Below are positions 18,287-33,073 of a stretch of 64,000 nt of DNA, in pieces. Each line of letters opens with the position of its first letter. Positions within the stretch are counted from its first letter, which is position 1. Origin of the DNA: Ciceribacter thiooxidans (GTDB lineage: Bacteria; Pseudomonadota; Alphaproteobacteria; Rhizobiales; Rhizobiaceae); NCBI RefSeq assembly GCF_014126615.1, contig NZ_CP059896.1, positions 1,622,501 to 1,686,500 on the forward strand. The letters are read 5' to 3'. The position numbers were made by a program, and so were the translations under genes. The notes beneath the pieces were generated by a model. The model saw only the letters and a list, made by a program, of their open reading frames with translations. It searched no databases and was not told the DNA's origin.

Positions 18287-19729
18287 TCAGTCGCGCCAGC
18301 GGGCGGAGAAGCGGACCTCCGGCTGATAGGCGAACTCCCTGACGAAGGGATAGGTCGGCTGCGCGCGGCGGCGGTTCGGCAGTGCCGCGATGTCCTGGTT
18401 GATCACCCCATCGGTCAGCGCCATGAGGTTCGGATTGGCAATCGGGGCAAGGTCCGGCGAGAGGTAGCCGGATTTCACCACCAGCAGCCGGGCGCCCGCA
18501 GGATCGAGCCCGAGGTGGGTGAAGTCCGCGATGTCGTGATAGGGCCTGCGCTTCGCCGCGAGCACCAGCGTGATGCCGCCGATCGTCACGACCGCCTGGC
18601 GGTCCGCGGGCAAACCCGGATCGTCGAGCCGCTGCACCGCCGCTTCCGCCTTGACCGAAGGGCTCGCCGGATCGAGTGTTCCGCCGATCGTAAGCCGGAG
18701 GCGGGCACCCTCGCCTGCCGCAAAACACGCGTCAACGGCGGGGCGGTCGGTGATGCCGGCGACGACGGCGCCCTCGAAATTTCGTGCGATCAGCACCTTC
18801 AGGACGTCGGCACGGTCGCCGACGCCACCGCCGGTCGGATTGTCGCCCGAGTCCGCGAGGATGACCGGACGCGTTGCGGACTTCTCGACGATATCGAGCA
18901 TATCTTCGAGGGGACCGGTCACCGGACCGAAGCGGAAGTCTTCGCGGGCGTCCCAATAGGACCGGGCGATTGCCGCCGCCACCTTTTCGGCCGCCGCCTT
19001 ATCGACGGCGGTGACGACAGCGCAGGCGGCGGCCCGCGGTTCGTCGGCCCAGACATAGCCGACCATCAGGTTGGCATCCCAGATGCCGGGCACGGCGTCG
19101 TGCTCCGGCAGCCTGAGATAGAGGCTTTTCGCCGGCTCGTCCTCGGTCGAGGTGCGCTCACCCGGCAGAAGCACCGGAACCGGTGCCCACGCGACGCCCG
19201 GCCGCTCGCCGGTCTGAAGCGCCCGCAGCAACATCGACCAGGCGCGGACCATCGTCTCGCGCACGTCTATATGCGGCGCGGTCCGGTAGCCGGCGAAGAT
19301 GTCGAGCTGGTCGACGATCCTCTGGGTCACGTTGCCGTGCAGATCGTAGCTCGCGGCGACCGGTATCTCCGGACCGACGACGGCACGGGCCGCGGCGATC
19401 CAGTCGCCCTCGGCATCGTCCATGCCCTCGACGTTCATCGCGCCGTGCATGGCGAGATAGAGACCGTCGAGGGGCAGCGCCGCCTTCAGCCGCTCCAGGA
19501 ACTCGGACTTGAACGCTTCGTAGGTCGCTCGTGCCACCGGACCGCCGGGAACAGCGCGGGCATGGAGCAGCGGCAGAGGTTTGATGCCGCCCGCAGACAG
19601 GAAGCTGAAATAGTCGGCCGCGAGCAGTTCATCCCCGCGCAGGACGCGAAAGTCCTCAGGCTGCATGAGCACCGGCGAGGAGGTGCTGCATTCGGTATGG
19701 ATGCCGCCGACGGCAATGCGCAAGGTCAT
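18287..19729 (-). CDS. M81-family (MlrC-like) metallopeptidase, first copy
   Basis: A 480-residue cytoplasmic protein of the microcystinase C family. Putative zinc and catalytic residues are all present: E13 (IHTE), H95 (AMHGAM), D129 and H131 (YDLHGN) and H153 (APHID). The His-34-Asp-2-His-22-His spacing equals that of the second copy and of MlrC as remembered. The C-terminal half has the ADSGDNPTGGGVGD motif. It starts 12 bases after the GH20 gene. The substrate is unknown; relatives cleave small amide or linear peptide bonds. Confidence 0.9.
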   Translation of the reverse strand: MTLRIAVGGIHTECSTSSPVLMQPEDFRVLRGDELLAADYFSFLSAGGIKPLPLLHARAVPGGPVARATYEAFKSEFLERLKAALPLDGLYLAMHGAMNVEGMDDAEGDWIAAARAVVGPEIPVAASYDLHGNVTQRIVDQLDIFAGYRTAPHIDVRETMVRAWSMLLRALQTGERPGVAWAPVPVLLPGERTSTEDEPAKSLYLRLPEHDAVPGIWDANLMVGYVWADEPRAAACAVVTAVDKAAAEKVAAAIARSYWDAREDFRFGPVTGPLEDMLDIVEKSATRPVILADSGDNPTGGGVGDRADVLKVLIARNFEGAVVAGITDRPAVDACFAAGEGARLRLTIGGTLDPASPSVKAEAAVQRLDDPGLPADRQAVVTIGGITLVLAAKRRPYHDIADFTHLGLDPAGARLLVVKSGYLSPDLAPIANPNLMALTDGVINQDIAALPNRRRAQPTYPFVREFAYQPEVRFSARWRD

Positions 19730-19741
19730 CTGCGGCTCTCC

Positions 19742-21667
19742 TCAGTAGCGCGGGCTCAGGCGGACGATCGCCGCAAAGCGCAGCCAGTCCTTGTCTTCGG
19801 CGGGAGTCCATGCCGCCTCGGCGACCGCCGGCAGACGCGGGAAGACCAGGTGGTTGAAATAGTCGCGATTGAGGAAGTGCTCCGACCAGATGCAGGCCTG
19901 CACGCCGCGCATGCGCGGTTTCAGTGCTTCCGGAAACTCGCCGACGGCCTCGTATGTATAGGTGTGGTGCGGCGGCACGGTTCCGGCCCAGCTCGCGCCC
20001 GGCTCCTGCCATTCGCTCGCCTGCACCATGTCGAGGTAATAGGCCTGACCCGGCGTCATCACCACGTCGTAGCCCTGTCTTGCGAGTTCGAGGCCGACCT
20101 CGGGCTTCTGCCAGGCCATCAGGAGCGTTCCCGCCGGATCGACGCCGCCGCCGTGGGAGACCTCGTCCCAGCCGGCAAGGCTCCGCCCACGGTCGGCGAG
20201 CATGCCCTGAATGCGCTTCATGAAGTAGGATTGCAGCCCGAACGTACCCTCAATCCCTTCCCGCTCCATGAGGCTCCGGGCGAGCGGCGAGGCCATCCAG
20301 GTGTTCGCCGCGACCTCGTCGCCGCCGATATGGATGAGCTTCGACGGGAAGATGCCGACCATCTCGTCGAAGACCTTGCCGAGGAACTCATAGGTCCGCT
20401 CGATCGCCGGGTTGAGGGCGTTGTTGGGATAACCCTGCACGGAGCGATAGCTGTCCGGCGCCTCCTGCCCGTCGTTGAGGTCGGGAAGTGCCGCCAGTGC
20501 CGCCGTGCTGTGGCCGGGTATGTCGATCTCCGGCACGACCTCGACCGCGAGTGCGTCGGCGTGGGCGACGACCTCCCTCGCCTCGTTCTGCGTGTAGAAG
20601 CCGCCGACCGGCTCGGCGCCGTTTCCGAGTTGCGGCAGTAGCGGTTCATCCGGACCGCGCAGCACGCCGACGGTCGTCAGTTCGGGAAAAGCCTTGATTT
20701 CGAGCCGCCACGCCTCGTCATCCGTCAGGTGCCAGTGGAAGATGTTCATCCGGAGCCAGGCAAGGATGTCGATCAGCCGCTTGACGTCGGCGACCGGATA
20801 GAACTGGCGCGAGACGTCGAGATGACAGCCACGCCAGCCATAGCGGGGCGCGTCCGAGATCGTCCCCGATGCCGGGAAACGGAAGGTCCCGGGCTTCGTC
20901 CGCGCGCCGTGGAGGAGCTGGGCGAGCACCGTCAACCCGTACTGCCGGCCCGGCGCATCGCCGTAGCGCAAGGTGACCGCGTCGGCTCCGAAGGTGAGCT
21001 CGTAGCCGGACGGCGCGACCCCGTCCTGCCTTTCGAAGCGCAGGGCGCGGCCCTCGTGAACCGGCGCCAGTGCAAACGGTACATGGGCAACCGAATAGAG
21101 CCGCCGGAACAGGGACAAAACGGTCTCGATCGCCCGCAATTCATCGGGCGTGGCACCTGCCGCGGGATGAAGCGCGACGGGGACGGTTTCGCCGGCGGTC
21201 AGCGACACCTTCGCCGGCCAGGGCAGGATTGAGAAGGGTTCCCTCACCTCGCCTTCAGGCAGCAATTGCGGCGCCGGCTCACTGTGGCGGCCCTCCAGCA
21301 TAAGGTCGCCGACCTCGACGGCATGATGGCTGCCGTCGCCGAGCGTCAGGTAGGCCGATTTCGCCCCGTCCGTCCTGTGGCGTGCCGGGCGCAGCAGGCC
21401 CTCGACGGTGAAGCGCCAGGATCTGCCCGGCGCCAGCGAGAAGCCCGCCGGCGGTGCATATTGATGGAAGTTGGCGTTGCGCTTCAGGAAGGTGGCGTTG
21501 CCGCAGGCCGGGGCGTCGTTGACGCGGGTGAGCGAGGTATAGGCGAGCTCGAAATCCGTGATCGCCTCTCCGGAAAGATTGACCAGCGTGAAGACGAAGC
21601 CGCCGCCTTCCTCTCCGGCCATCGGATACCAGGCGTTTTCGAGACGGAATTGGGCTGTGGCCATCAT
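19742..21667 (-). CDS. Beta-N-acetylhexosaminidase, GH20 family, cytoplasmic
   Basis: A 641-residue enzyme with an N-terminal beta-domain, then the GH20 barrel: CHLDVSRQFYP, NIFHWHLTDDEAWRLEI, VEVVPEIDIPGHS and the catalytic pair in HIGGDE at about residues 446-451, with the Asp orienting the substrate 2-acetamido group and the Glu as acid. It releases terminal GlcNAc or GalNAc. There is no signal peptide (starts MMATAQFRLENAWYP), so it acts on imported substrates. It lies between the SDR and the M81 peptidase with gaps of 21 and 12 bases. Confidence 0.94.
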   Translation of the reverse strand: MMATAQFRLENAWYPMAGEEGGGFVFTLVNLSGEAITDFELAYTSLTRVNDAPACGNATFLKRNANFHQYAPPAGFSLAPGRSWRFTVEGLLRPARHRTDGAKSAYLTLGDGSHHAVEVGDLMLEGRHSEPAPQLLPEGEVREPFSILPWPAKVSLTAGETVPVALHPAAGATPDELRAIETVLSLFRRLYSVAHVPFALAPVHEGRALRFERQDGVAPSGYELTFGADAVTLRYGDAPGRQYGLTVLAQLLHGARTKPGTFRFPASGTISDAPRYGWRGCHLDVSRQFYPVADVKRLIDILAWLRMNIFHWHLTDDEAWRLEIKAFPELTTVGVLRGPDEPLLPQLGNGAEPVGGFYTQNEAREVVAHADALAVEVVPEIDIPGHSTAALAALPDLNDGQEAPDSYRSVQGYPNNALNPAIERTYEFLGKVFDEMVGIFPSKLIHIGGDEVAANTWMASPLARSLMEREGIEGTFGLQSYFMKRIQGMLADRGRSLAGWDEVSHGGGVDPAGTLLMAWQKPEVGLELARQGYDVVMTPGQAYYLDMVQASEWQEPGASWAGTVPPHHTYTYEAVGEFPEALKPRMRGVQACIWSEHFLNRDYFNHLVFPRLPAVAEAAWTPAEDKDWLRFAAIVRLSPRY

Positions 21668-21688: not shown

Positions 21689-22465
21689 TCAGTAGTGCGG
21701 CGATTGCGAGAAGGTGCCGGCGAGTTCGGTCTGGCCGGCCGTCAGGCCGCAGTCGACGGCCAAGCAGACGCCGGTGATTGCCGCCGCCTGGTCGCTCGCA
21801 AGAAAGAAGACGGCGTTCGCCACGTCGGCAGGGTCGACGATGCGGCGCAACGGATACCAGCGCTTCGCTTCCTCGAAGACCTGCGGATTGGCGGCGGCGC
21901 GCGCCTCCCAGGCGTGGGTGCGCACGGTGCCGGGCGCGACCGCGTTCGCGCGGATACCGAACTTTCCATATTCGACGGCGATCAGCTTCGTCAGATGAAT
22001 GAGGCCAGCCTTGGCGGCGCTGTAGGCGGGATGGCCGTAAACCGCGAGACCGTTCACCGAGGCGATGTTGACGACCGATCCGCGGCTCTCCTTCAACGCG
22101 CCCTCGAAAGCCCGGAAGCAGAGGAACGGCGCTTCCAGGTTAAGCGCGCTATCCTTCCGCCAGATCTCGCCGTCGGTGTCGTGCAGGCTGACGGCGCGCG
22201 CCGCGCCGGCATTGTTGACGAGCGTTCTCACCCGGCCGAGCCGGGCCGCGCGGCTGGCGGCATCGGCGAGGCTCTCCTCGCTGGTGACGTCGCAGACTGC
22301 GGGGACCATACGCTCCGGCGCTCCCGCACTCTCGACCGCGTCCCGCAAAGCCTCCGCATCGATGTCGAGAAGCACGACAGCGTCGTGGCTTTCGGCGAGC
22401 CTTGCAGCGATCGCCCGCCCGATGTCGCCGGCCGCACCCGTCACGACGGCAACGGAGCGGTTCAC
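21689..22465 (-). CDS. Short-chain dehydrogenase/reductase
   Basis: A 258-residue classical SDR: nucleotide motif TGAAGDIG at 9-16, NNAG at 84-87, catalytic S136, Y148 and K152 (YSAAK). D34 after beta-2 (LLDID) suggests NAD(H). The likely start is GTG at 22465, placing the cofactor motif at the usual distance; the open frame extends further up but has no good start. The gene lies 46 bases after the RpiR-type regulator in the amino-sugar operon. The substrate is probably a sugar or polyol; not shown. Confidence 0.87.
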   Translation of the reverse strand: MNRSVAVVTGAAGDIGRAIAARLAESHDAVVLLDIDAEALRDAVESAGAPERMVPAVCDVTSEESLADAASRAARLGRVRTLVNNAGAARAVSLHDTDGEIWRKDSALNLEAPFLCFRAFEGALKESRGSVVNIASVNGLAVYGHPAYSAAKAGLIHLTKLIAVEYGKFGIRANAVAPGTVRTHAWEARAAANPQVFEEAKRWYPLRRIVDPADVANAVFFLASDQAAAITGVCLAVDCGLTAGQTELAGTFSQSPHY

Positions 22466-22511: not shown

Positions 22512-23375
22512 CTAATCTCCCAGAGGTTGCCGGTCATCGCCGTCGCGATGTTCGACCAGTTGCTGCTTGATGTGACGCAAGGTGATCTGCGAGGTCTTGC
22601 GATTGCGGTAGGCGACGAGGCTTGCCAATACATCGACAATGGCGAGATAGGCGAAACGGGTCGATGTCGGACGGAAGATGTTCTCTCCCTCCGGCAGGTC
22701 GATGCCGATAACGATCTCGGCGGCGCGCGCGACGGGGCTGTCACTCTGCGTCAGAGCGATCGTGGCGATGCCGTTCTCGCGGGCGAGATTGAAGCAGCGC
22801 ACGAGCTCGCCGTTGCGGCCGGAGAGCGACGAGCCGATGATGACGTCGTTCGAACGGGCCGCCGCCGTCATCATCAGCTGCATGGCGTGGTCGTTGCTGA
22901 CCGTCACCCGCACGCCGAGCCGGAACAGCCGGTTCTGGATCTCGCCCGCGACCATCGAGGAATTGCCACCGGAGCCGAAGGCGTAGAGCATCTCGGCCCG
23001 CGACAGCCTGTCCGCGGCCTTTTCCAGCATGTCGGCGTCGAGCGCCCGGTGAACGAGGTAGAGCGCATTCTGCGCCTTGGTGATGACGTCGGCGGCGACG
23101 TCCGCCGGCTTCGTGCTTTCTGCTTCCGGATTGAGGTAGCGCACGCCGACATAGGCGGTGCGGGCAAGGTTCACCTTGAAATCCGCAAAGCTCTGGCAGC
23201 CGAGCCTGCGACAGAAGCGCGTGACCGTCGGCGGCGAGACCTCGGCGCGCTCGGCAAGCTCGATGATGGACGCATTGACGGCGAAATCGAACTGGTTGAG
23301 CAGGATATCCACGATACGCTGCTCGGAGGGCGAAAACTGCCCCGTTTCTTCCTGTAATGTCGCGAAAATGTCCAC
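22512..23375 (-). CDS. MurR/RpiR-family transcriptional regulator
   Basis: A 287-residue regulator: N-terminal HTH_6 domain (about 1-77, recognition helix SPPTVTRFCRRLG) and a C-terminal SIS domain (about 115-255; YAFGSGGNSSMVAGE and IGSSLSGRNGE) that binds phosphosugars. The start is GTG at 23375 with GGGGAAGGGG upstream. It sits second in its operon, between ridA and the SDR. It is the best candidate to bind the TGAAAA-type boxes found before ridA, the NTF2-like gene and the sugar importer operon, probably sensing an amino-sugar phosphate. Confidence 0.92.
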   Translation of the reverse strand: MDIFATLQEETGQFSPSEQRIVDILLNQFDFAVNASIIELAERAEVSPPTVTRFCRRLGCQSFADFKVNLARTAYVGVRYLNPEAESTKPADVAADVITKAQNALYLVHRALDADMLEKAADRLSRAEMLYAFGSGGNSSMVAGEIQNRLFRLGVRVTVSNDHAMQLMMTAAARSNDVIIGSSLSGRNGELVRCFNLARENGIATIALTQSDSPVARAAEIVIGIDLPEGENIFRPTSTRFAYLAIVDVLASLVAYRNRKTSQITLRHIKQQLVEHRDGDDRQPLGD

Positions 23376-23401: not shown

Positions 23402-23788
23402 CTATTTTGAAGGGTTGTAGGCTATGCAGTCGATCTCGACCTTGCAATCGACCATCATGGAGGACTGCACGCAGGCGCGGGCCGGCGGATGCTCGCCGAA
23501 ATACTGCTGATACACCTTGTTGAAGCTCCAGAAATCCCGGGGATCGTCGAGCCACACGCCGCAGCGCACGACGTGCTCGACGCCGTAACCGGCCTCATGC
23601 AGGATGGCGATCAGGTTGGCGATCGCCTTGTGGGTCTGCTCGACGATGCCGCCCTGGATAATCTCGCCGTTGTCCATCGCGACCTGGCCGGAAACATGCA
23701 GCCAGCCATCGGCCTCGACGGCGCGCGCAAAAGGCAGGCCCTGCCCGCCCGCACCGGATTGCCCACTGCCGTAGCGCCTGACTGTCAT
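23402..23788 (-). CDS. RidA/YjgF/UK114-family enamine/imine deaminase
   Basis: A 128-residue trimer-forming protein. Conserved features are HVSGQ at about 31-35, the substrate-binding R104 in PPARACVQ and the C-terminal KVEIDCIAYNP. RidA proteins hydrolyse reactive enamine/imine intermediates made by PLP enzymes or amine oxidases. It is first in the operon with rpiR 26 bases downstream, so it likely removes an imine arising in this amino-sugar pathway. It reads as a divergent subfamily rather than housekeeping RidA. Confidence 0.92.
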   Translation of the reverse strand: MTVRRYGSGQSGAGGQGLPFARAVEADGWLHVSGQVAMDNGEIIQGGIVEQTHKAIANLIAILHEAGYGVEHVVRCGVWLDDPRDFWSFNKVYQQYFGEHPPARACVQSSMMVDCKVEIDCIAYNPSK

Positions 23789-23796
23789 CGCCCACC

Positions 23797-23814
23797 TATG
23801 CAAATTGTTTTCAT
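23797..23814 (-). promoter_or_regulatory. Putative RpiR box 1 (ridA operon)
   Basis: Minus-strand ATGAAAACAATTTGCATA, 9 bases upstream of the ridA start. It matches the box before the oxidoreductase operon at 15 of 18 positions and contains the imperfect dyad TGAAA-N5-TTGCA. Binding here would block transcription or translation of ridA-rpiR, consistent with autorepression. Confidence 0.6.
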
Positions 23815-23870
23815 GATTGATTGACAAATCAGCATGGAAAACCGATTTTGACCAGAGGAAATCGACCATT

Positions 23871-23891
23871 ATGAAAAGAATTTCGACATGA
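23871..23891 (+). CDS. Six-codon leader frame overlapping RpiR box 2
   Basis: ATG at 23871 follows GAGGAA with a 10-base spacer, then five codons (Lys-Arg-Ile-Ser-Thr) and a TGA that overlaps the ATG of the NTF2-like gene (ATGA). The NTF2-like gene itself lacks a ribosome site at normal distance, so it may be translated by coupling from this leader. The same bases (23871-23888) form a match to the RpiR box: ATGAAAAGAATTTCGACA, 14 of 18 identical to box 1. Confidence 0.4.
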   Translation: MKRIST

Positions 23892-24382
23892 GCACATCGC
23901 GAGATCCTTACAAGAATCCGTTCGCGGCCTCCGACGCGGCGCGCCACTCGATCTGGGACATGCTGGTTGCGCGGGATATCGATGCGTTCCTCTCCGCAGA
24001 CTGGTCGATGGTCGCCGGCGATTTCATCGAGGAAGGCTTTCTCGGCATCAGCGGCAATCGCGAGACGAACCCCGACCGCTGGACGCTCGCCTTTCCGACG
24101 CTCGCTGCGTATCGCGACGAGTGGCTGCGGCAGGCGCACGATTTCGCCGGCAAGACCTATGGCGAAGACCCGCGCACGGCGATCTTCCGCACCACCCGGC
24201 TCGAAGAGATCGAGATCACCGGCGAAACGGCGCTGGTGCGCAAGAAGTTCGACGGCGGCATCCGCATGACCGACGGCGGTCTCGACGTCATGAAATGGCA
24301 GACGCTCTATTACTGCCGTCTGCACGACGGCCGCTGGAAGATCAGCGGCTTTACCGGTTATCTGCCCTATCCCATGGGGTGA
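23888..24382 (+). CDS. NTF2-like / SnoaL-type small protein
   Basis: A 164-residue protein with the profile of the NTF2-like cone fold: an N-terminal helix pair, then strands ending in WQTLYYCRLHDGRWKISGFTGYLPYPMG, the usual C-terminal sheet. Such proteins are small isomerases, dehydratases or binding proteins; the function here is not known. It is divergent from ridA (99 bases) and 33 bases before the second M81 peptidase, so it is probably part of the same pathway. No signal peptide. Confidence 0.75.
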   Translation: MSTSRDPYKNPFAASDAARHSIWDMLVARDIDAFLSADWSMVAGDFIEEGFLGISGNRETNPDRWTLAFPTLAAYRDEWLRQAHDFAGKTYGEDPRTAIFRTTRLEEIEITGETALVRKKFDGGIRMTDGGLDVMKWQTLYYCRLHDGRWKISGFTGYLPYPMG

Positions 24383-24415
24383 GGCTCTCTTCTCACGACA
24401 CCGAAGGCCATCGTC

Positions 24416-25885
24416 TTGCGCATCTTCACCGCCGCCCTTGCAACTGAAACCAACACCTTCTCGCCCATCTGCATCGACCGGCGCGCTTTCGAGGATTCTC
24501 TTTACGCCCCACCCGGCACGCATCCGCAGACGCCGACGCTCTGCACCGCACCGATCACCGTCGGCCGCCGGGTTGCAGCCGGGAAGGGCTGGACGCTGAT
24601 CGAGGGAACGGCGACCTGGGCCGACCCCGCCGGCCTCGTCAACCGCGCGACCTATGAGGGCCTGCGCGACGAAATCCTCGACCAGTTGCGGGCGGCGATG
24701 CCGGTCGACGCCGTGGTGCTTGGCCTGCACGGAGCCATGGTCGCGGCCGGCTACATCGATCCGGAGGGCGACCTTCTCACGCGCATCCGCGAGATCATCG
24801 GGCCGGACGTGCTGCTTTGCGCCGAGCTCGACCCGCACAGCCATCTGACGGCAAAGCGCGTGGCGGCGGCCGATTTCTTCGTCGTGTTCAAGGAGTTCCC
24901 GCATACGGATTTCGTCGCTCGCGCCGAGGATCTGTGGAGGATAACGGTCGATGCGCTGGAGGGCCGGGTGAAACCGGTCATGTCCGTGTTCGATTGCCGG
25001 ATGATCGACGTCTTTCCGACCTCCAGGGAACCGATGCGCTCCTTCGTCGACAGACTGATGGCGATCGAGGCGGAGGACGAAGATGTCCTGTCGCTCTCCG
25101 TCATCCACGGCTTCATGGCCGGGGACGTACCGGAACTCGGCACGAAGATGATCGCCGTCACCGACGCGAAACCCGAGAAAGGCGCACACCTCGCCCGCGA
25201 ACTCGGGCTCGAACTCTTTTCGAAACGCGGCACGTTCATGATGCCGCAGATCGACGAGAAGGAGGCCGTGAGCCGGGCGCTTGCTGCCACCCGCGGCCCG
25301 GTCGTCATCGCCGATATGTGGGACAATCCCGGCGGCGGCACCGCAGGCGATTCGACGGTGATCGTGGAGGAGCTCCTTTCGCGCGGCGCGACCGACGTGG
25401 CCGTCGGCATGATCTGGGACCCGATCGCCGTCCAGCTCTGCATGGCGGCCGGTGAAGGGGCGGAAATCCCCTTGCGTTTCGGGGCGAAATCCGCGCCGGG
25501 TACCGGCAATCCCATCGACGGGCTCGTCGAGGTCGTGCGCGTCGTGCCGAATGCCGAAATGCGCTTTGGCGAGAGCGTGGCCCCCTTCGGGGACGCCGCA
25601 CACATCCGCCTTGCAGGCATCGACATCGTGTTGAGCAGCGTCCGGGTGCAGAGCTACGATCCGTCGCTTTTCACCGCACTGGGCATCAATCCGCAGAGCA
25701 AGCGCATCCTGGTGATCAAGTCGACGAACCACTTCTACGCCGCGTTCTCGAAGATCGCGTCGGAAATCCTCTACTGCTCCGCCGGCTCCCCCTACCCGAA
25801 CGACCCGGCAACCAATCCCTACCGGCGTGCGAGGCGCGACATATGGCCGATGACGGCCGATCCGCACGGCGCCGAGGTCGCATGA
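24416..25885 (+). CDS. M81-family (MlrC-like) metallopeptidase, second copy
   Basis: A 489-residue paralogue of the M81 enzyme at 18287-19729. It has E11 (ATETNTFSP), H105 (GLHGAM), D139 and H141 (ELDPHSH), H163 (FPHTD) and WDNPGGGTAGDST, with the same His-34-Asp-2-His-22-His spacing. The start is TTG at 24416, giving the family N terminus MRIFTAALATETNTF with GAAGG upstream. It lies downstream of the NTF2-like gene. The two copies are clearly diverged, so they probably cut different bonds or substrates. Confidence 0.9.
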   Translation: MRIFTAALATETNTFSPICIDRRAFEDSLYAPPGTHPQTPTLCTAPITVGRRVAAGKGWTLIEGTATWADPAGLVNRATYEGLRDEILDQLRAAMPVDAVVLGLHGAMVAAGYIDPEGDLLTRIREIIGPDVLLCAELDPHSHLTAKRVAAADFFVVFKEFPHTDFVARAEDLWRITVDALEGRVKPVMSVFDCRMIDVFPTSREPMRSFVDRLMAIEAEDEDVLSLSVIHGFMAGDVPELGTKMIAVTDAKPEKGAHLARELGLELFSKRGTFMMPQIDEKEAVSRALAATRGPVVIADMWDNPGGGTAGDSTVIVEELLSRGATDVAVGMIWDPIAVQLCMAAGEGAEIPLRFGAKSAPGTGNPIDGLVEVVRVVPNAEMRFGESVAPFGDAAHIRLAGIDIVLSSVRVQSYDPSLFTALGINPQSKRILVIKSTNHFYAAFSKIASEILYCSAGSPYPNDPATNPYRRARRDIWPMTADPHGAEVA

Positions 25886-25987
25886 GATCGGCGCCAGCCG
25901 GCACTGACGGTCGTCGCCCACGGCATGGTGTGGTAGCCTGTCGCGCGTGCGCGACCGCGACTGTCTCGCATCGGGAGGAGAAAAGGC

Positions 25988-26428
25988 ATGGTTGCATTCG
26001 AAGGAGAGTTGCGGAAGGCGCCGCGGCTGCGCGGCGGCTGCATGTGCGGGGCCGTCACCTACGAGGTCGCGGACAATTTCCTCTACGCGATCAACTGCCA
26101 CTGTTCGAAGTGCCGGCGGACCACCGGTTCGGCCTTCAAGCCGATCGCCGGCGTTGCGGTCGAGGATTTCGAGGTTACGGCCGGTACGGACAACCTCTTC
26201 CGGCACGGCGATCCGGACGGTATCCACGACATGCATTGCCGCACCTGCGGTTCTCTCATCTATTCGTGGATCGCCGAGCGCGGTACCGTGAAGGTGCACC
26301 TGCCGATGGGCACGTTGATCGACGTTCCTTCGATCCGGCCGGCGATGCACATCTTCGTCGGCTCGAAGGCGCCATGGTACGAAATCACCGACGACCTTCC
26401 CCAGTACGAGGGTTTTCCGACTGAGTGA
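25988..26428 (+). CDS. GFA/CENP-V-family zinc protein
   Basis: A 146-residue protein of the glutathione-dependent formaldehyde-activating enzyme (GFA) fold. Zinc ligands are visible: C18 and C20 (CMCG), C37, C39 and C42 (NCHCSKCR), and C84 and C87 (CRTCG). Members bind glutathione adducts or unknown thiols; the activity here is unknown. It follows the M81 gene after 102 bases with its own GGAGGAG-type ribosome site and converges on the ABC ATPase gene, 12 bases apart. Confidence 0.87.
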   Translation: MVAFEGELRKAPRLRGGCMCGAVTYEVADNFLYAINCHCSKCRRTTGSAFKPIAGVAVEDFEVTAGTDNLFRHGDPDGIHDMHCRTCGSLIYSWIAERGTVKVHLPMGTLIDVPSIRPAMHIFVGSKAPWYEITDDLPQYEGFPTE

Positions 26429-26440
26429 ACTGTCCGGGCG

Positions 26441-27571
26441 TCATTCCGCAGCGGTCACGGCGGCCGGCAGCTCGAACCGGCGCCAGTCGATACGCCGCTC
26501 CAGCGCACGCCCCGAGGGATCGAAGAGGTGACAGTCCGCCGCCATGATGCCGGTCAGCATCGGCTCGTCGGCACGGATCGGTGCCGAGCCCGGCAAGAGC
26601 GCGCAATAGGGTTCACCGGAGGGCAGGCTCGCATAGGCGACCGTATTGATGCCGAGCCGCTCGATCACCGACGGCACGACGCGGATGGCGAGGTCGCCGG
26701 CAGCAAGAGTCGTATGCTCCGGGCGGATACCGAGCGTCAGTGTCTCGCCGACGAGACCGGCCGGCGCTTCGACGGCGATCGTCGCCGACTGCCCTTCATA
26801 GGAAATCATGACCCCGTCCTCGCCGACCGCGGTGCAGGTCACGGGCACGAAGTTCATCTTCGGATTGCCGATGAAGCCGGCGACGAAAAGGTTCTGTGGC
26901 TTGTGATAGAGTTCGAGCGGCGCGCCGACCTGCGCCACGTCGCCGGCGTTCAGCACGACGATGCGGTCGGCCATGGTCATCGCCTCGACCTGGTCATGGG
27001 TGACATAGATCATCGTCGCCTGAAGGTCGCGATGCAGCTTGGTGAGCTCGATCCGCATATCCGAGCGAAGGGCTGCATCGAGGTTCGAAAGCGGCTCGTC
27101 GAACAGGAAGATCTTCGGCTCCCGGACGATCGCCCGGCCGATCGCCACGCGCTGGCGCTGGCCGCCGGAGAGCATGCCCGGTCGCTGCTCGAGCCGCTGT
27201 TCGAGCTTCAGGATCGTCGCGACCGCCTCAACCTTCTCGCGGATCATCGCCTCCGGCATCTTTTCGACCCGCAGCGGAAAGGCGATGTTTTCGAACACCG
27301 ACATGTGCGGATAGAGCGCATAGGACTGGAAGACCATGGCGATGCCGCGCTCAACCGGCGGCCTGTCATTGACCCGCTCGCCATCGATGACGATATCGCC
27401 GCCGCTGGTGTCGTCGAGCCCGGCGATCATGCGCAGAAGCGTCGACTTCCCGCAGCCGGAAGGACCGACGAAGACGACGAACTCTCCGTCACCGATCTCG
27501 AGCGAAACGCCCTTGATGACTTCGAAATGCCCGTAGGACTTGACGACCCTGTTGAGATTAAGCTGACCCAC
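26441..27571 (-). CDS. CUT1 sugar ABC transporter ATP-binding protein (UgpC/MalK-like)
   Basis: A 376-residue ATPase: Walker A GPSGCGKST at about 36-44, signature LSGGQRQRVAIGRA at about 134-147, Walker B IFLFDEPLSNLD, H-loop THDQVEAMTM, and a C-terminal TOBE/OB regulatory part. It drives the importer formed with the two permeases upstream. The start is GTG at 27571. It is the last gene of the operon, separated from the binding protein by 97 bases holding a strong hairpin. Confidence 0.93.
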   Translation of the reverse strand: MGQLNLNRVVKSYGHFEVIKGVSLEIGDGEFVVFVGPSGCGKSTLLRMIAGLDDTSGGDIVIDGERVNDRPPVERGIAMVFQSYALYPHMSVFENIAFPLRVEKMPEAMIREKVEAVATILKLEQRLEQRPGMLSGGQRQRVAIGRAIVREPKIFLFDEPLSNLDAALRSDMRIELTKLHRDLQATMIYVTHDQVEAMTMADRIVVLNAGDVAQVGAPLELYHKPQNLFVAGFIGNPKMNFVPVTCTAVGEDGVMISYEGQSATIAVEAPAGLVGETLTLGIRPEHTTLAAGDLAIRVVPSVIERLGINTVAYASLPSGEPYCALLPGSAPIRADEPMLTGIMAADCHLFDPSGRALERRIDWRRFELPAAVTAAE

Positions 27572-27634
27572 GTCCCTGTTTCTCCACGCTGCCGGCGTCC
27601 TGCGTGCGGGTGCCGGCCGTTCCTGCGAAAGCGA

Positions 27635-27658
27635 GGTCGCGGGCTTTCGCCCGCGACC
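27635..27658 (-). other. Perfect 10-bp stem-loop with GAAA loop after the binding-protein gene
   Basis: On the minus strand GGTCGCGGGC-GAAA-GCCCGCGACC: ten GC-rich pairs closed by a GAAA tetraloop, 11 bases after the binding-protein stop. There is no U-tract behind it. It sits in the same position as the hairpin after ytfQ and likely stabilises the binding-protein message against 3' decay while letting some transcripts continue to the ATPase gene. Confidence 0.75.
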
Positions 27659-27668
27659 GTCTTGCAGC

Positions 27669-28889
27669 TTACTTGTACTGGTCGAGTTCGGCGGCGGCCT
27701 TCTTCAGGGCATCCGCGGGTTCGGCCTTGCCGGTCACGACCGACTGCACCATCTCGATCATCACGTTCTGGAAGCCGCGATAATCGGTGAACAGCGGTTC
27801 CGGGCCGCCATAGGTAATGCCGTCGATCAGCGGCTTCCAGTAAGGATCCTTGGCGACGAACTCGTCGACCTTCGGGCCGGGACGCAGCGGCGTGAGGCCG
27901 GCACCGCCCTGCAGCTCATATTCGCCCTGCGGACCGGGAGAGGTGATGAACTTGGCGAACTCGGTCGCCTTGTCCTCGACGCCCGAACCTTTGAAGACCA
28001 CGAGACTGTCGGTAATCAGCAATGTCCCCTCACCCTTGGCCGAAGGCCCGAGCGGCAGAGGCGCGATGCCCCAGTTGATGTCGCGCTCCTTCAGAAGAGC
28101 GGCGGCTCCCGAGCCGGACTGAATCATGCCGACCTTGCCGTCGAGGAAGATCGCGCGGATCTCGTTCTGCTCGTAGGCGGTCGCGCCTTCGACGGAATAA
28201 GGGGCGATATCCTTGTAGGCCTGGAGCGCGGCCAGCACTTCCGGGCTGTCGATGACGATCTTGTCGCCGTCGATCACCTTGCCATTGTTGGTGTAAACCC
28301 AGTGCATGAACTGGTGCATCGTGTTGTCGAAGGTCTTCGCCGGCAGGCCGTAACCGGCGATGCCAGTCTTCTCCTTGATCTGCTTGGCAAAGGCGATCTC
28401 TTCGGCCCAGGTCTTCGGCGGGGTTTCCGGATCGAGGCCCGCCTGCTTGAAGAGATCCTTGTTCCAGTAGAGGACCTTGGTGGAAAAGGCGATCGGCACG
28501 CCCCACTGGGTGTCGTCGAAGGTGACGGTGTCGACGATGTTCGGATAATAGCTCGCCTTCTCCTCGTCGGTCATCGGCACCGGAACGATCATGTCGTTCT
28601 CGGCGAATTCCTTCAGCGTCCGCGAACCGACATAGGCGAGGGCTGCCGGAGAGCCGGAAGCGGCGAGCGTCGTCGCCTTGTCCTGGCACTGCGCCCAGCC
28701 GACGACTTCCGGAACGACCTTGTAGCCGGCGTTCTTTCCTTCCCATTCCTTGATGTACTTCTCGTGGATCGGGTCGATCTTGTCGCCGCAATAGATCCAG
28801 CTGATCTCCTGGTCGGCAGCAAGCGACGGCAGTGCCGAGCCGGCGAGCAGCACCATTGCGCCGGCGAGAATGCTAAAAGTCCTTTTCAT
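27669..28889 (-). CDS. CUT1 sugar ABC transporter substrate-binding protein
   Basis: A 406-residue periplasmic binding protein of family 1: signal peptide about 1-24 (MKRTFSILAGAMVLL...SLA-AD), then ISWIYCGDKIDPIHEKYIKEWEGKN and GVPIAFSTKVLYWNKDLFKQAGLDPETPPKTWAE, typical of malto-/chito-oligosaccharide or glycerol-phosphate-type binders. Context next to nagA, nagK and GH20 suggests GlcNAc, chitobiose or a GlcNAc-containing conjugate. It follows the second permease by 60 bases. Confidence 0.92.
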   Translation of the reverse strand: MKRTFSILAGAMVLLAGSALPSLAADQEISWIYCGDKIDPIHEKYIKEWEGKNAGYKVVPEVVGWAQCQDKATTLAASGSPAALAYVGSRTLKEFAENDMIVPVPMTDEEKASYYPNIVDTVTFDDTQWGVPIAFSTKVLYWNKDLFKQAGLDPETPPKTWAEEIAFAKQIKEKTGIAGYGLPAKTFDNTMHQFMHWVYTNNGKVIDGDKIVIDSPEVLAALQAYKDIAPYSVEGATAYEQNEIRAIFLDGKVGMIQSGSGAAALLKERDINWGIAPLPLGPSAKGEGTLLITDSLVVFKGSGVEDKATEFAKFITSPGPQGEYELQGGAGLTPLRPGPKVDEFVAKDPYWKPLIDGITYGGPEPLFTDYRGFQNVMIEMVQSVVTGKAEPADALKKAAAELDQYK

Positions 28890-28949
28890 CTGCGGTTCCC
28901 CTTATTTTGACAGGTTGGTCTTCGGTATTTCAGATGTGCAGGTCGTCTC

Positions 28950-29807
28950 CTACTTGACGGCGCCGGCGGTGAGCCCGCTCACTAGGTAGCGCTGCAGGAA
29001 GAAGATCACGATCAGCGCCGGCGCTATGCCGACGAAGCTTGCGGCCATCAATTCGTTCCAGACCACCTCCTGCCGCCCGAAATAGGCAAAGAGCCCGATC
29101 GGCAGCGGCATGTACTCGGTCTTGGAATTGAAGGTCAGCGCGAAGATGAACTGTTGGGCATAGGCGCCGATGAAGGTGGTGATGGCGACGACGGCGATGC
29201 CGGGTGCGGCAAGCGGCAGGACCACCCGCCGGAAGGTGTAGAAATAGCCGGCGCCGTCGACATAGGCGGCTTCCTCGAGCTCCCTCGGGATGCGCATCAT
29301 GTAGGTCCGCAGCAGCCAGATCGCCGTCGGGATCAGGAAAGCGGCGCCGGGGACGATCATCGCGAGATAGGTGTTGAGGACGCCGAAGGAGCGCATCAGC
29401 CGGAAGAGCGGGATGAGCAGAACGGCGCCGGAGAACATGTTGACCGCAAGGAAGGCGCCAAGCAGCGGCCCCCTGCCCCGGAAATCGAAGCGCGCGAAGG
29501 CATAGGCGGCCGGGACGACGAGCAGCAGCACGACCAGGGTCGCCACGCCGGAAATGAAGAACGAATTGAAGATGTAGCGGGCAAAGCCCGGCACGCTGAC
29601 CCACATGGTGCGGTAGGCCTCGAAGGAACCGTTCTCCGGCCAGAAGCGGTATGGCGAGGAGAAGAGCTGGCTGAGCGGCTTCAGCGAAACGAGGAAACCT
29701 TCGACGAAAGGTGCGAGCACGAAGGTGAGGAAGATCGCGATGCCGGTATAGATGCCGGCGATCTCGTACCACCGGTAGCGGTTGATCATGGAACTCGGCT
29801 GTCTCAT
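28950..29807 (-). CDS. CUT1 sugar ABC transporter permease (MalG-like)
   Basis: A 285-residue inner-membrane protein with six hydrophobic segments and the ATPase-contacting EAA loop ELEEAAYVDGAGYFYTFRRVVLPLAAPG. The ATG at 29807 overlaps the stop of the other permease (ATGA), which favours it over the in-frame ATG at 29789. It is the MalG-type half of the importer channel. Confidence 0.92.
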   Translation of the reverse strand: MRQPSSMINRYRWYEIAGIYTGIAIFLTFVLAPFVEGFLVSLKPLSQLFSSPYRFWPENGSFEAYRTMWVSVPGFARYIFNSFFISGVATLVVLLLVVPAAYAFARFDFRGRGPLLGAFLAVNMFSGAVLLIPLFRLMRSFGVLNTYLAMIVPGAAFLIPTAIWLLRTYMMRIPRELEEAAYVDGAGYFYTFRRVVLPLAAPGIAVVAITTFIGAYAQQFIFALTFNSKTEYMPLPIGLFAYFGRQEVVWNELMAASFVGIAPALIVIFFLQRYLVSGLTAGAVK

Positions 29808-30688
29808 CGCTTCTCTCCGACGGCAAGGCGGCTGGTCACGCGGAAGTAGGCAATGCAGAAGATCGACAGGAAGATGCAGATCAGCACCGCGCGGGCAGCG
29901 CCCTCCCCGTACTTCTTCGACCCGATCGCCGTGCGGTAGGTGTCGATGATCATCGTCGTCGTTTCGCCGGTCGGTCCACCCTGGGTCAGGATCCAGATGA
30001 TGTCGAAGGAATTGAAGGTCGAAATCAGCGAGATCATCGACATGGTGATCATTGCCGGCAGCAGCAGCGGCAGGGTGATGCGACGGAAGCGGTAGAAGCG
30101 GCCGGCTCCGTCCGTCCAGGCGGCTTCGTCGAGATCCTGCGGAATGGCCTGGATGGCGGCGAGCATATAGAGCGTCACCATCGGCACGCCGATCCAGACG
30201 TCGGTGAAGATCGTCGCCCAGAAGGCAGTCGAACCGTGGGCGAGAAAGGCGACCGGTCCGTCGACGAAGCCGAAGCGTTGCAGCAGGCCCGAAATCATGC
30301 CGAACTGACCGTTGTACATCCAGCCCCACATGAAGATGCCGATCGCCATCGGCACGATCCACGGCGGCATGGTCAACACGCGAAAGATTGCGCGGCCCGG
30401 CACCGCGGTATTGAGCATGGTCGCGCCGAAGGTGCCGATGACCATCTTGATCGTCACCGAAAAGAACGTCCAGACGAAGGTTCGCAGGATCACTTCGGCA
30501 AAGGTCGCGTTGAAGATCTTGTCGTAATTTACCCAGCCGACCCAGTTGGTCACACGCTTCAGCGAAGCGTCGGTGAACGACAGGATCACGGTGTCGACCA
30601 GCGGATAGGCGACGATCGTCGCGACATAGAAGACCGCCGGCGCGAGCAGCAACCAGGCAAAGATGATGGCGCTTCGTCTGGCCTGCAT
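29804..30688 (-). CDS. CUT1 sugar ABC transporter permease (MalF-like)
   Basis: A 294-residue permease with six hydrophobic segments, EAA loop DLDEAAWTDGAGRFYRFRRITLPLL and the family's TQGGPTGETTTMIID near the C terminus. The ATG at 30688 has GAGG upstream and lies 8 bases after the oxidoreductase stop; a longer frame to 30742 would overlap that gene. It pairs with the MalG-like permease. Confidence 0.92.
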   Translation of the reverse strand: MQARRSAIIFAWLLLAPAVFYVATIVAYPLVDTVILSFTDASLKRVTNWVGWVNYDKIFNATFAEVILRTFVWTFFSVTIKMVIGTFGATMLNTAVPGRAIFRVLTMPPWIVPMAIGIFMWGWMYNGQFGMISGLLQRFGFVDGPVAFLAHGSTAFWATIFTDVWIGVPMVTLYMLAAIQAIPQDLDEAAWTDGAGRFYRFRRITLPLLLPAMITMSMISLISTFNSFDIIWILTQGGPTGETTTMIIDTYRTAIGSKKYGEGAARAVLICIFLSIFCIAYFRVTSRLAVGEKR

Positions 30689-30696
30689 GGCGAACC

Positions 30697-31878
30697 TCAG
30701 GCGGAACGGGCGGCGAGCGGAACCTCGCGCCCCTGAAGACAAGCATCAAACGTCGCCCAGACCGGCGCGAGGTCGATCACCTTGCGGCCAAGCCGTGCCT
30801 CGTCCATCGCCAGCGCCAGGATGCCGGCCTCGAGCGCATCGATGGCCGAAACCGGCTGCGGCCGCCCCTCTTCGACGAAGGCCAGCACGTCGGCCGCCAT
30901 CTGCTCGTCGGCACCGTAATGCTGCGACTCGTCGGACGGCGCCGTGTAGGTGTTGGCGACCGTCTTCTCGTTGGTGCGGGCATCGTGGACGTTCATGTAG
31001 CCGCGGACGAAATCGCCTTCGGCCATGCCTTTGGAGCCGATCACGCAGAAGCGACGGAACTGGTCCGGCACGTTGAGATTGGTGTGGAAGGTCATCGAGG
31101 CACCGTTCTCGTATTCGACGATCGCGGTCTGGTAGTCGATGATGTCGGCGTCGCTGTCGAAGACCCGGTCCGACCCCATCCAGCCGCTCGGCTTGCGATG
31201 ATAGACTTCGAGATCGTTGGCGCCGGTGGCCGCCGGCGCGTTTTCCGGCACAAAGCTCTTGCGACCACCGAAGCTCGCCACGAACCGCGGGCGCGCACCG
31301 ACGACACCGTTGTAGAGATCGAGATCGTGGCAGCATTTTTCCAGCATGAAGCCGCCGGCGTAGCGTCCGTAACGACGCCAGTCACGCATGAAGAAGGCGC
31401 CGTGATAGGGCTCGATGTGCTCGGACGCCTCTATCGACACGACCTCGCCGAGACGCCCCTCCGCCTGCGCTCTGCGCAGGTCGCGATAGAGCGGCGAATA
31501 GCGCAAGACGAGGCCGACCAGAAGTCGGTCATGGCCGTATTTCGCCAGCAGCGAGGCGAGCGCATAACTCTCCTCTATCGACACGACGATCGGCTTCTCG
31601 GTGAAGACGGTCAGCCCGGCCTCGAGACCGATGCGGATATGTTCCAGATGGAGGTGATTCGGCGAGCCGATCATCAGAAGGTCGAATTTCTCGCCCGCGA
31701 TCAGCGCCTCGGGGCTGGGATAGGAGCGGCCGGACGAAATGCCGCGCTGCTCGAGCGCCTCCAGACCGGCGGGCGCCGGATCGACATAACCGACGATCTC
31801 GAAATCCGGATCGATCTCACTGAGGATTCGTCCCAGATAGCCGAGACGGAATCCCAGTCCGATGACGGCGACTTTCAT
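30697..31878 (-). CDS. Gfo/Idh/MocA-family oxidoreductase
   Basis: A 393-residue NAD(P)-dependent sugar dehydrogenase-type protein: Rossmann start MKVAVIGLGFRLGYLG, then FTEKPIVVS with the conserved catalytic-region EKP, and a C-terminal alpha/beta domain. The HDLDLYNG motif near 185 is typical. It is first in the importer operon, so it likely oxidises or epimerises the imported sugar or a derivative. The exact substrate is unknown. Two putative RpiR boxes lie upstream. Confidence 0.9.
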   Translation of the reverse strand: MKVAVIGLGFRLGYLGRILSEIDPDFEIVGYVDPAPAGLEALEQRGISSGRSYPSPEALIAGEKFDLLMIGSPNHLHLEHIRIGLEAGLTVFTEKPIVVSIEESYALASLLAKYGHDRLLVGLVLRYSPLYRDLRRAQAEGRLGEVVSIEASEHIEPYHGAFFMRDWRRYGRYAGGFMLEKCCHDLDLYNGVVGARPRFVASFGGRKSFVPENAPAATGANDLEVYHRKPSGWMGSDRVFDSDADIIDYQTAIVEYENGASMTFHTNLNVPDQFRRFCVIGSKGMAEGDFVRGYMNVHDARTNEKTVANTYTAPSDESQHYGADEQMAADVLAFVEEGRPQPVSAIDALEAGILALAMDEARLGRKVIDLAPVWATFDACLQGREVPLAARSA

Positions 31879-31894
31879 GACTTCGTTCCCTGTT

Positions 31895-31912
31895 TATGCA
31901 ATTACTTTTCAT
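31895..31912 (-). promoter_or_regulatory. Putative RpiR box 3 (importer operon)
   Basis: Minus-strand ATGAAAAGTAATTGCATA, 17 bases upstream of the oxidoreductase start, 15 of 18 identical to box 1 before ridA. The similar distance from both start codons supports a shared repressor. Confidence 0.6.
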
Positions 31913-31967
31913 AGACTGCGCCGACTTGCTATGTCCGTCAACTCTGAATGGAGTCCGCGCAGATATT

Positions 31968-31985
31968 CGTGAAAGTTGTTTTCAT
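31968..31985 (-). promoter_or_regulatory. Putative RpiR box 4 (importer operon, distal)
   Basis: Minus-strand ATGAAAACAACTTTCACG contains the most symmetric version of the motif, TGAAA-N5-TTTCA, with both arms perfect. It lies 73 bases upstream of box 3 (about seven helical turns), so a dimer pair could bridge the two. Confidence 0.6.
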
Positions 31986-32057: not shown

Positions 32058-32215
32058 ACAATACCAAATAGAGCCCAATCGTCTACCGTATGTGGCCACA
32101 TTTTGTTTCCCAGATGCGTAATTAGCTGATTTTGCTCAAAACTTTCTTGTCGATGATGACATTTTGGTAACATCTAGCAAAACCATTTGCCGCAAAGGTC
32201 CTTAGTTGGTATTGT
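32058..32215. promoter_or_regulatory. Inverted pair ACAATACCAA / TTGGTATTGT
   Basis: The 10-base word ACAATACCAA (32058-32067) recurs exactly as its reverse complement at 32206-32215, with 138 bases between. The GGTA core is similar to sites of HutC-type GntR regulators. It may be a pair of half-operators for the adjacent GntR/UTRA protein, acting by looping, but the spacing is wide and chance is not excluded. Confidence 0.35.
32090..32101. promoter_or_regulatory. 12-bp perfect palindrome ATGTGGCCACAT
   Basis: A perfect palindrome in the middle of the AT-rich divergent region, between the two arms of the ACAATACCAA pair. Size and symmetry suit a GntR-family dimer. No second copy was noticed in the window. 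Confidence 0.45.
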
Positions 32216-32320: not shown

Positions 32321-33073
32321 ATGAGCGAGACACTTCCCCTTGAGCAGTTGCAGAGCGTTCGTGGCGGCCCCCTCTATGTGCGGCTGAAGAAGATGATCCA
32401 GGACGCGATGTCTTCGGGTCGGCTGAAACATGGCGACGCCCTGCCCGCGGAACGGGACATCGCCGATGTCGCCCAGATCAGTCGCGTGACGGTTCGCAAG
32501 GCGATCGACGATCTCGTTGCCGAGGGGCTTCTGGTGCGGCGGCGGGGCTCGGGTACGTTCGTCGTTGCGCCGGTGCCGCGGATGCAGCAGCCACTCAGCC
32601 AGTTGACGTCGTTCACGGAGGACATGCGCCGGCGTGGCATGGTGGCGGGCTCGATCTGGATCGAGCGCGGCCTCTTCTTTCCGACGCCTGAGGAAACGAT
32701 GATGCTGGGGCTCGTCGGAGGTGCGCGCGTCGCACGCCTCGTCAGGGTGCGGACGGCAAACGAGATGCCGATCGCATTCGAACGCACGAGCCTGCCGGAC
32801 GACATCCTGCCGAACCCGGAGGCAATAGAGGATTCGCTTTACAAGCTGCTGCTTTCGCGCGGGTTCCGTCCGATCCGGGCCAACCAGCGCATATCTGCGG
32901 TCGTGCTGACGGACGACGAGACGAAGATACTCGGCATGCCGCCGGGTTCGGCAGCACTCGCCGTCCAGCGTATCGCTTATCTCGAATCCGGCCGCGTCAT
33001 GGAAATGTCGCGTGCCCTCTACCGCAGCGATGCCTACGACCTCGTCGCCGAACTGACGATCGGCTCCCCCTAG
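32321..33073 (+). CDS. GntR-family regulator, HutC/UTRA subfamily (NagR-like)
   Basis: A 250-residue regulator with a winged HTH (about 18-82; LPAERDIADVAQISRVTVRKAIDDL) and a UTRA ligand domain (about 95-238). DasR/NagR/YvoA relatives bind GlcN-6-P or GlcNAc-6-P. It is followed after 22 bases by the deaminase, nagA and kinase genes, so it most likely represses this GlcNAc catabolic operon and perhaps the divergent importer. Confidence 0.9.
   Translation: MSETLPLEQLQSVRGGPLYVRLKKMIQDAMSSGRLKHGDALPAERDIADVAQISRVTVRKAIDDLVAEGLLVRRRGSGTFVVAPVPRMQQPLSQLTSFTEDMRRRGMVAGSIWIERGLFFPTPEETMMLGLVGGARVARLVRVRTANEMPIAFERTSLPDDILPNPEAIEDSLYKLLLSRGFRPIRANQRISAVVLTDDETKILGMPPGSAALAVQRIAYLESGRVMEMSRALYRSDAYDLVAELTIGSP

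Follow-up and report, generated by a model that had tools for sequence, protein, structure and literature searches.

The stretch of DNA analysed here, called the window throughout, comprises 64,000 nucleotides of Ciceribacter thiooxidans (contig NZ_CP059896.1, positions 1,622,501 to 1,686,500). It contains an island in which a unit encoding RidA, a MurR/RpiR regulator, an SDR dehydrogenase, a GH20 glycoside hydrolase and an M81 protein diverges from a unit encoding a 164-aa protein and a second M81 protein, and in which an operon for a Gfo/Idh/MocA oxidoreductase and a sugar importer lies close by (Table 1). A sequence-only reading of this DNA had drawn attention to four related 18-mers upstream of these genes, and their coordinates and strands are borne out by the window sequence: box 1 is the reverse complement of 23797–23814 (ATGAAAACAATTTGCATA), box 2 is 23871–23888 on the plus strand (ATGAAAAGAATTTCGACA), and boxes 3 and 4 are the reverse complements of 31895–31912 (ATGAAAAGTAATTGCATA) and 31968–31985 (ATGAAAACAACTTTCACG). 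Boxes 2, 3 and 4 share 14, 15 and 14 of 18 positions with box 1, within the range of 14–15 first given, and box 4 is indeed a perfect TGAAA-N5-TTTCA dyad, one of five exact occurrences in a genome of 5.04 Mb. A length of 17 letters describes the dyads best, and these 17-mers are listed as sites 1–4 in Table 1.

Other parts of the initial description require revision. Two divergent intergenic regions hold all four sites, where three divergent units had been named, and the distances of the sites from the starts, said to be similar, are 9, 0 and 17 bp for sites 1–3 and 90 bp for site 4. Nor are they four equivalent and independent boxes. Sites 1 and 2, and likewise sites 3 and 4, form phase-locked pairs with a centre-to-centre distance of 73 bp in each; because 73 bp corresponds to about seven turns of B-DNA, both dyads of a pair face the same side of the helix.

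Table 1. Candidate operator dyads, predicted promoter elements and genes of the island, in window coordinates
Feature	Position	Strand	Description
Site 1	23798..23814	-	Operator-like dyad ATGAAAACAATTTGCAT; 9 bp before ridA start; 25.8 bits, window rank 1
Site 2	23871..23887	+	Operator-like dyad ATGAAAAGAATTTCGAC; abuts start of 23888 gene; 19.5 bits, rank 3
Site 3	31896..31912	-	Operator-like dyad ATGAAAAGTAATTGCAT; right after predicted -10 of gfo-importer operon; 23.5 bits, rank 2
Site 4	31969..31985	-	Operator-like dyad ATGAAAACAACTTTCAC; upstream of predicted -35; 17.5 bits, rank 4
Predicted -35 TTGACG, gfo-importer promoter	31936..31941	-	Between sites 3 and 4; role assigned by eye
Predicted weak -10 CAGTCT	31913..31918	-	17 bp from -35; abuts site 3; assigned by eye
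rpiR, MurR/RpiR regulator	22512..23375	-	HTH_6 + SIS by Pfam; GTG start; presumed binder
ridA	23402..23788	-	Ribonuc_L-PSP; NCBIfam Rid family slightly below cut-off; first gene of ridA-rpiR-SDR-GH20-M81 unit
SDR dehydrogenase	21689..22465	-	Pfam; start approximate; syntenic in relatives
GH20 glycoside hydrolase	19742..21667	-	Pfam
M81 protein	18287..19729	-	Pfam DUF1485 + MlrC_C
164-aa protein, first gene of divergent unit	23888..24382	+	Orthologues 74-82% identical in syntenic loci
M81 protein, second gene of divergent unit	24416..25885	+	Pfam; below cut-off of MlrC model
Sugar ABC importer	26441..30742	-	Two permeases, binding protein, MalK-type ATPase; Pfam/NCBIfam
Gfo/Idh/MocA oxidoreductase (gfo)	30697..31878	-	First gene of importer operon
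GntR/UTRA (NagQ-like) regulator	32321..33073	+	Divergent from importer; start inferred from domain; NagQ name by analogy

Within the 64 kb, the only places that match box 1 at 14 or more of 18 positions are the four boxes themselves, and 40 dinucleotide shuffles of the window averaged 0.1 such matches and never gave more than 1. A scoring matrix built from 82 sites of relatives only, with the window left out of training, placed the four sites at ranks 1–4 in the window (17.5–25.8 bits), with the next place at 6.2 bits, a gap of 11 bits. A chance repeat is ruled out by the shuffles together with the low score of this next-best place.

The motif as such is less distinctive than the pairs. Its IUPAC form matches 100 places in the host genome (25 when the pattern is reversed), among which the four boxes rank 1, 2, 4 and 6 by matrix score. 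The check on genome-wide rarity that the sequence-only reading had called for gave a divided answer: single sites are not unique, and only the two window pairs bring two of the 100 matches within 20–200 bp of each other. The six best matches outside the window (ranks 3, 5, 7, 8, 9 and 10) have no partner above 0 bits at 72–74 bp. Five of the six lie inside a stop-to-stop frame of at least 150 aa on one strand or the other, which is a weak sign of coding; the sixth, L182, lies outside such a frame. Good single sites do exist outside the island, and some of them could be real. One good single match of 17.4 bits, at C2:1372172 of genome G000 (L180), falls in the 3′ end of a gene that Pfam assigns to a LacI-family regulator, and has no partner.

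The spacing recurs with little change among rhizobia and their relatives. The named loci number 80, the best among 257 relatives. In each, the two top-scoring sites in the 900 bp ahead of rpiR were located with spacing left free, using a matrix trained on same-genus pairs, as it was for the next two counts; the distance is exactly 73 bp in 79 loci, and the exception, L158, ends at a contig end. Across 108 loci, 355 sites score at least 15, and 344 of these have a partner scoring at least 6 within 20–200 bp, at 72 bp (62 sites), 73 bp (276), 74 bp (4), 36 bp (1) or 45 bp (1), that is, at 72–74 bp in 342 cases; L035–L057 and L088–L119 share some contigs, as equal lengths show, so that some genomes are counted twice. 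At the importer, 63 distinct stretches including the window remained after exclusion of 38 of the 108 loci (no match from gfo residue 1) and of L127 (too short), and a search with spacing free over 20–200 bp gave 72 bp in 24, 73 bp in 36 and 74 bp in two, with no pair in one outgroup locus. The rpiR-side block occurs in 77 distinct versions, of which the dyads are the most conserved part, while the 56 bp between them show a median pairwise identity of 68% and a minimum of 23%; these blocks were cut at 73 bp, and the importer blocks were aligned at 70–76 bp only (61 of 62 at 72–74), so that neither set is a spacing test.

The same distance is found in other settings as well. In another family of the same order, where the matrix was refitted on the tested sequences and the spacing again left free, 25 ridA loci with M81 nearby gave 73 bp (21 loci), 72 bp (2), 74 bp (1) and no sites (1). 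The half-site there is often TGTAAA, with the spacing unchanged. None of five other-family ridA homologues for which no M81 was found nearby has two scoring sites. Three genomes whose best RpiR match is 56–58% have other neighbours in a stretch with no importer match, and carry a 72 bp pair ahead of M81 and a 73 bp pair ahead of rpiR.

A few loci bear additional sites. Between the importer pair and gntR, Rhizobium sp. CG5 has a second, weaker pair (L105, 553 and 626; 13 and 12 bits), also 73 bp apart, and additional single sites occur on that side in L120, L123, L132 and L136. Two similar dyads accompany a distant RpiR (34%) in L062, at 5932 and 6110; they are 178 bp or about 17 turns apart (15.9 and 5.3 bits), possibly by chance.

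Comparison of genomes also bears on whether the units form one regulon. RpiR orthologues of at least 76% identity are present in 23 same-genus genomes among 60 relatives, and in the stretches fetched from them the gene order is kept wherever the contig reaches, a few lacking single genes (for example ridA in L047). Both boxes of the pair are present, at the same spacing, in all 22 ridA regions (our own and 21 relatives; L018 has no ridA, L025 is cut, L029–L034 have other neighbours, and these were omitted), and both are present in all 21 gfo regions (our own and 20 relatives; L036, L052 and L054 stop short of gfo and were omitted). The scan of related genomes that had been proposed thus finds the sites conserved upstream of orthologous ridA and gfo. 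Gene content points the same way. Of 35 same-genus genomes, 31 reach a completeness of 90% or more; an RpiR orthologue (at least 76%) and Gfo occur together in 21 of these, 10 have neither and none is discordant; three of the 10 carry an RpiR homologue of 56–58%. Four incomplete genomes were set aside, one with both, one with neither and two discordant (G004, 66% complete, and G015, 84%). By the syntenic sites and this co-occurrence, a single RpiR regulon joining ridA-rpiR(-SDR-GH20-M81), the 23888–M81 unit and the importer is well supported on comparative grounds, and this core of the original proposal stands. GH20, two M81 proteins, RidA, the oxidoreductase and the sugar importer would then share a predicted regulon, a link that limits where the role of M81/MlrC-type proteins in these bacteria need be sought.

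The identification of the 22512–23375 product as a MurR/RpiR regulator is upheld by Pfam, with HTH_6 at 64.4 bits and SIS at 52.1 bits, both above cut-off. Its closest PDB entries are 8ju9 (the best) and 8k3b, with E of about 1e-37; 8ju9 is RccR of Pseudomonas aeruginosa (PMC12713135), described as tetrameric, its ligand lying between subunits (PMC10810197). Nine RccR contacts to 2-keto-3-deoxy-6-phosphogluconate (KDPG) are given in that report (PMC10810197). Compared by eye and by residue number, S139, R152, S183, S185, K270 and R277 are identical in RpiR (the last two lying beyond the local alignment with the solved relative), while H148, H164 and S188 are not kept, so that the contact set is not the one expected of an RccR orthologue. 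With six contacts retained and three lost, the ligand is likely to be a sugar or sugar acid in phosphorylated form, but the residues do not point to KDPG itself.

At the importer, 61 of the 63 distinct stretches have TTGAC between the two dyads, and a hexamer like CAGTCT occupies the −10 place in many of the aligned rows, with different letters in others. With TTGAC between the dyads and the predicted −10 abutting site 3, the layout would be that of a loop through which a tetramer represses. It seems probable to us that an RpiR tetramer bridges the in-phase operator pairs and cages the promoter in a short repression loop that a phosphosugar releases. The four boxes would be operators of the regulator encoded within the island, with sites 1 and 2 placed around the divergent ridA-rpiR and 23888–M81 promoters and sites 3 and 4 around the importer promoter. 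One dyad would be held by the two helix-turn-helix domains of an RpiR dimer, and a tetramer, assembled as a dimer of dimers through the SIS domains, would span both dyads of a pair; the intervening promoter DNA would be bent into a small closed loop from which RNA polymerase is excluded. A phosphosugar arising in the pathway that the island encodes may then fill the SIS pockets at the tetramer interface and open or rearrange the loop, which would switch on the importer, GH20, M81 and the regulator together. The sites, the rarity of their pairing, their conservation and spacing, and the linkage of the genes are observed; RpiR binding, the tetramer, the loop, repression rather than activation, and the ligand are the elements that we infer.

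Several observations tell against such a loop. Eleven of the 355 high-scoring sites have no partner scoring at least 6, and two are partnered at 36 or 45 bp. Genome G040 (L061) has just one good site at its gfo gene, L202 in the other-family test has no pair, and in L059 and L060, two of the 57%-type loci, the rpiR-side partner is degenerate (1.7 bits). The −10 predicted for the importer is a weak one. At the ridA pair, the dyads probably enclose two overlapping divergent promoters, and promoter geometry could fix part of the spacing there. As for repression, NanR of Streptococcus pneumoniae is described as an RpiR-type activator (PMC12713135), and RccR is said both to suppress and to activate (PMC5489143).

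One alternative is a single RpiR regulon whose dyads act singly, the start-proximal dyad being an ordinary operator and the spacing a result of the packing of promoter elements, with no bridging. The dyads between ridA and the 23888 gene each stand just before one divergent start and enclose promoter-like elements, and the predicted −10 of the importer directly adjoins site 3. The equal spacing is, however, also found at the importer, where only one promoter is seen between the dyads, at loci whose neighbouring genes differ, and in a second family; moreover, the 15-bp pairs of the RccR type are shorter by two turns and not by a random length. On balance we consider independent action of the dyads unlikely. 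Less probable again is a dual regulator for which the distal dyad serves activation and the proximal one repression, with contact to RNA polymerase setting the spacing. Lying some 70 bp ahead of the likely start, a distal dyad occupies a class I-like activator position; the distance of site 4 upstream from the predicted −35 hardly varies, and MurR is called a dual regulator in the MG1655 annotation; activation by S. pneumoniae NanR (PMC12713135) and the twofold action of RccR (PMC5489143) would fit as well. Against this, all RpiR regulators reported to date apart from S. pneumoniae NanR are stated to be repressors (PMC12713135), and at the ridA/23888 pair the dyad that is proximal for one promoter is distal for the other, which would require a single arrangement to do both.

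That a different protein binds the boxes, for instance the GntR/UTRA regulator or a paralogue of RpiR, we judge very improbable. The GntR gene adjoins sites 3 and 4, genome G000 has four RpiR-type matches, and NagQ is reported to control N-acetylglucosamine genes in alphaproteobacteria (PMC5343134). Yet the pair stays beside rpiR in stretches with no gfo or gntR match (L058–L060), and it is present at ridA-rpiR; the NagQ motif is given as a tandem repeat (PMC5343134), and separate conserved repeats of the TTGGTAT type, recognised by eye, lie closer to gntR; and the size of the dyads is like that of the HexR and RccR sites (PMC5489143). In the window, CAATACCAA and TTGGTATTG at 32059–32067 and 32206–32214 have a NagQ-type appearance, and like repeats were seen by eye before the GntR gene in relatives. 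On these grounds, the importer region is probably under two regulators, GntR/UTRA and RpiR.

Some further features of the island deserve mention. The GntR/UTRA gene, which did not figure in the sequence-only reading, is followed by SIS, NagA-like and ROK genes transcribed away from the importer, and a GFA protein is encoded beyond the plus-strand M81 gene. The NTF2 label once attached to the product of 23888–24382 finds no match in Pfam or NCBIfam at E 0.001. The leader of this gene is shorter in the window species than in most relatives, so that site 2 (the 23871–23890 area) touches the start codon; no obvious ribosome-binding site precedes it in the window species, and most relatives apparently start further downstream, at ATGCGCGATCC or alike. 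In L058 (5905–7473 and 7634–10737) the 57% RpiR homologue is accompanied by a protein with alanine-racemase-N and D-serine-dehydratase domains, M81, a family 5 solute-binding protein and RidA, neighbours hinting that the partners of M81 handle D-amino-acid or peptide substrates.

The proposed RpiR loop has its closest parallel in RccR. Both regulators belong to the MurR/RpiR family, RccR being the nearest relative of known structure, and in both systems two 15-bp dyads with a 3-bp centre flank promoter DNA at a constant, in-phase spacing (52–53 versus 72–74 bp). At aceE, RccR is reported to occupy its two 15-bp dyads with apparent cooperativity and with extra protected tracts between them, which the authors read as possible strong bending (PMC5489143). 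The two differ in that the half-site is TGTAGT and the distance five turns for RccR, against TGAAAA/TGTAAA and seven turns here; RccR, moreover, controls central carbon genes and senses KDPG (PMC5489143, PMC10810197). Dyads of the RccR type before aceE-like frames, located by a single-site search and measured start to start in 11 genomes hand-picked from 16 with family label f65, show a distance of 52 bp in 10 genomes and of 53 bp in one, or about five turns. The same AceE-like frame, in which Pfam recognises Transketolase_N only, adjoins the pair in all 11; the names AceE and GlnE beside these pairs were recognised by eye in two of the 11 genomes. A phylum-wide search for RccR double sites, its gap taken from the published figure of 68 bp, found none in 398 genomes on account of that gap. 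As cited, that figure would fit the outer span of a pair spaced 52–53 bp.

In Escherichia coli, the MurR tetramer has likewise been proposed to bridge two adjacent sites over the murQ promoter, with 17 bp between the sites and 47 bp overall (PMC12713135). In the murR–murQ gap ATGATTCC occurs twice, 32 bp or about three turns apart, and our guess is that it marks the two MurR sites; an automatic repeat search of this gap found nothing. MurR differs from the present case in its much shorter spacing, its motif and its ligand, N-acetylmuramate 6-phosphate, and its bridging is, in the same source, also a proposal. HexR (PRK11302) is the best NCBIfam match of RpiR and has a pseudo-palindromic dyad of similar size (PMC5489143), with other target genes. 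RpiR is not HexR itself, its score of 200.2 bits comparing with a cut-off of 296.

Paired sites are thus already known for RpiR regulators, and bridging and looping are discussed as proposals in recent structural work (PMC12713135), although the openly licensed literature on RpiR, MurR and NanR regulators, in the parts consulted, gave no account of the operator pair described here. What is worth testing is the near-invariant seven-turn spacing and the possible series of three, five and seven turns. It may be, though we hold this tentatively and with some doubt, that the MurR/RccR/HexR branch shares a rule by which a tetramer bridges dyads an integral number of turns apart (so far odd: 3, 5, 7), at about 32 bp in MurR, 52 bp in RccR and 73 bp here, with a loop size fixed for each branch. 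If such a rule were true, spacing alone would predict the members of a regulon and the loop that the phosphosugar opens. For the use of two sites by tetrameric regulators with sugar-isomerase domains, a near-invariant 73 bp pair at two promoters and in two families makes phase dependence directly testable. A parallel is offered by the loops of the Lac repressor, in which one repressor bridges two operators and in which spacings of at least 57.5 bp, tested in vivo, are reported to show strong helical-phase dependence (PMC1762422). The Lac repressor belongs to another regulator family, however, and in the RpiR case one loop length would recur at different promoters.

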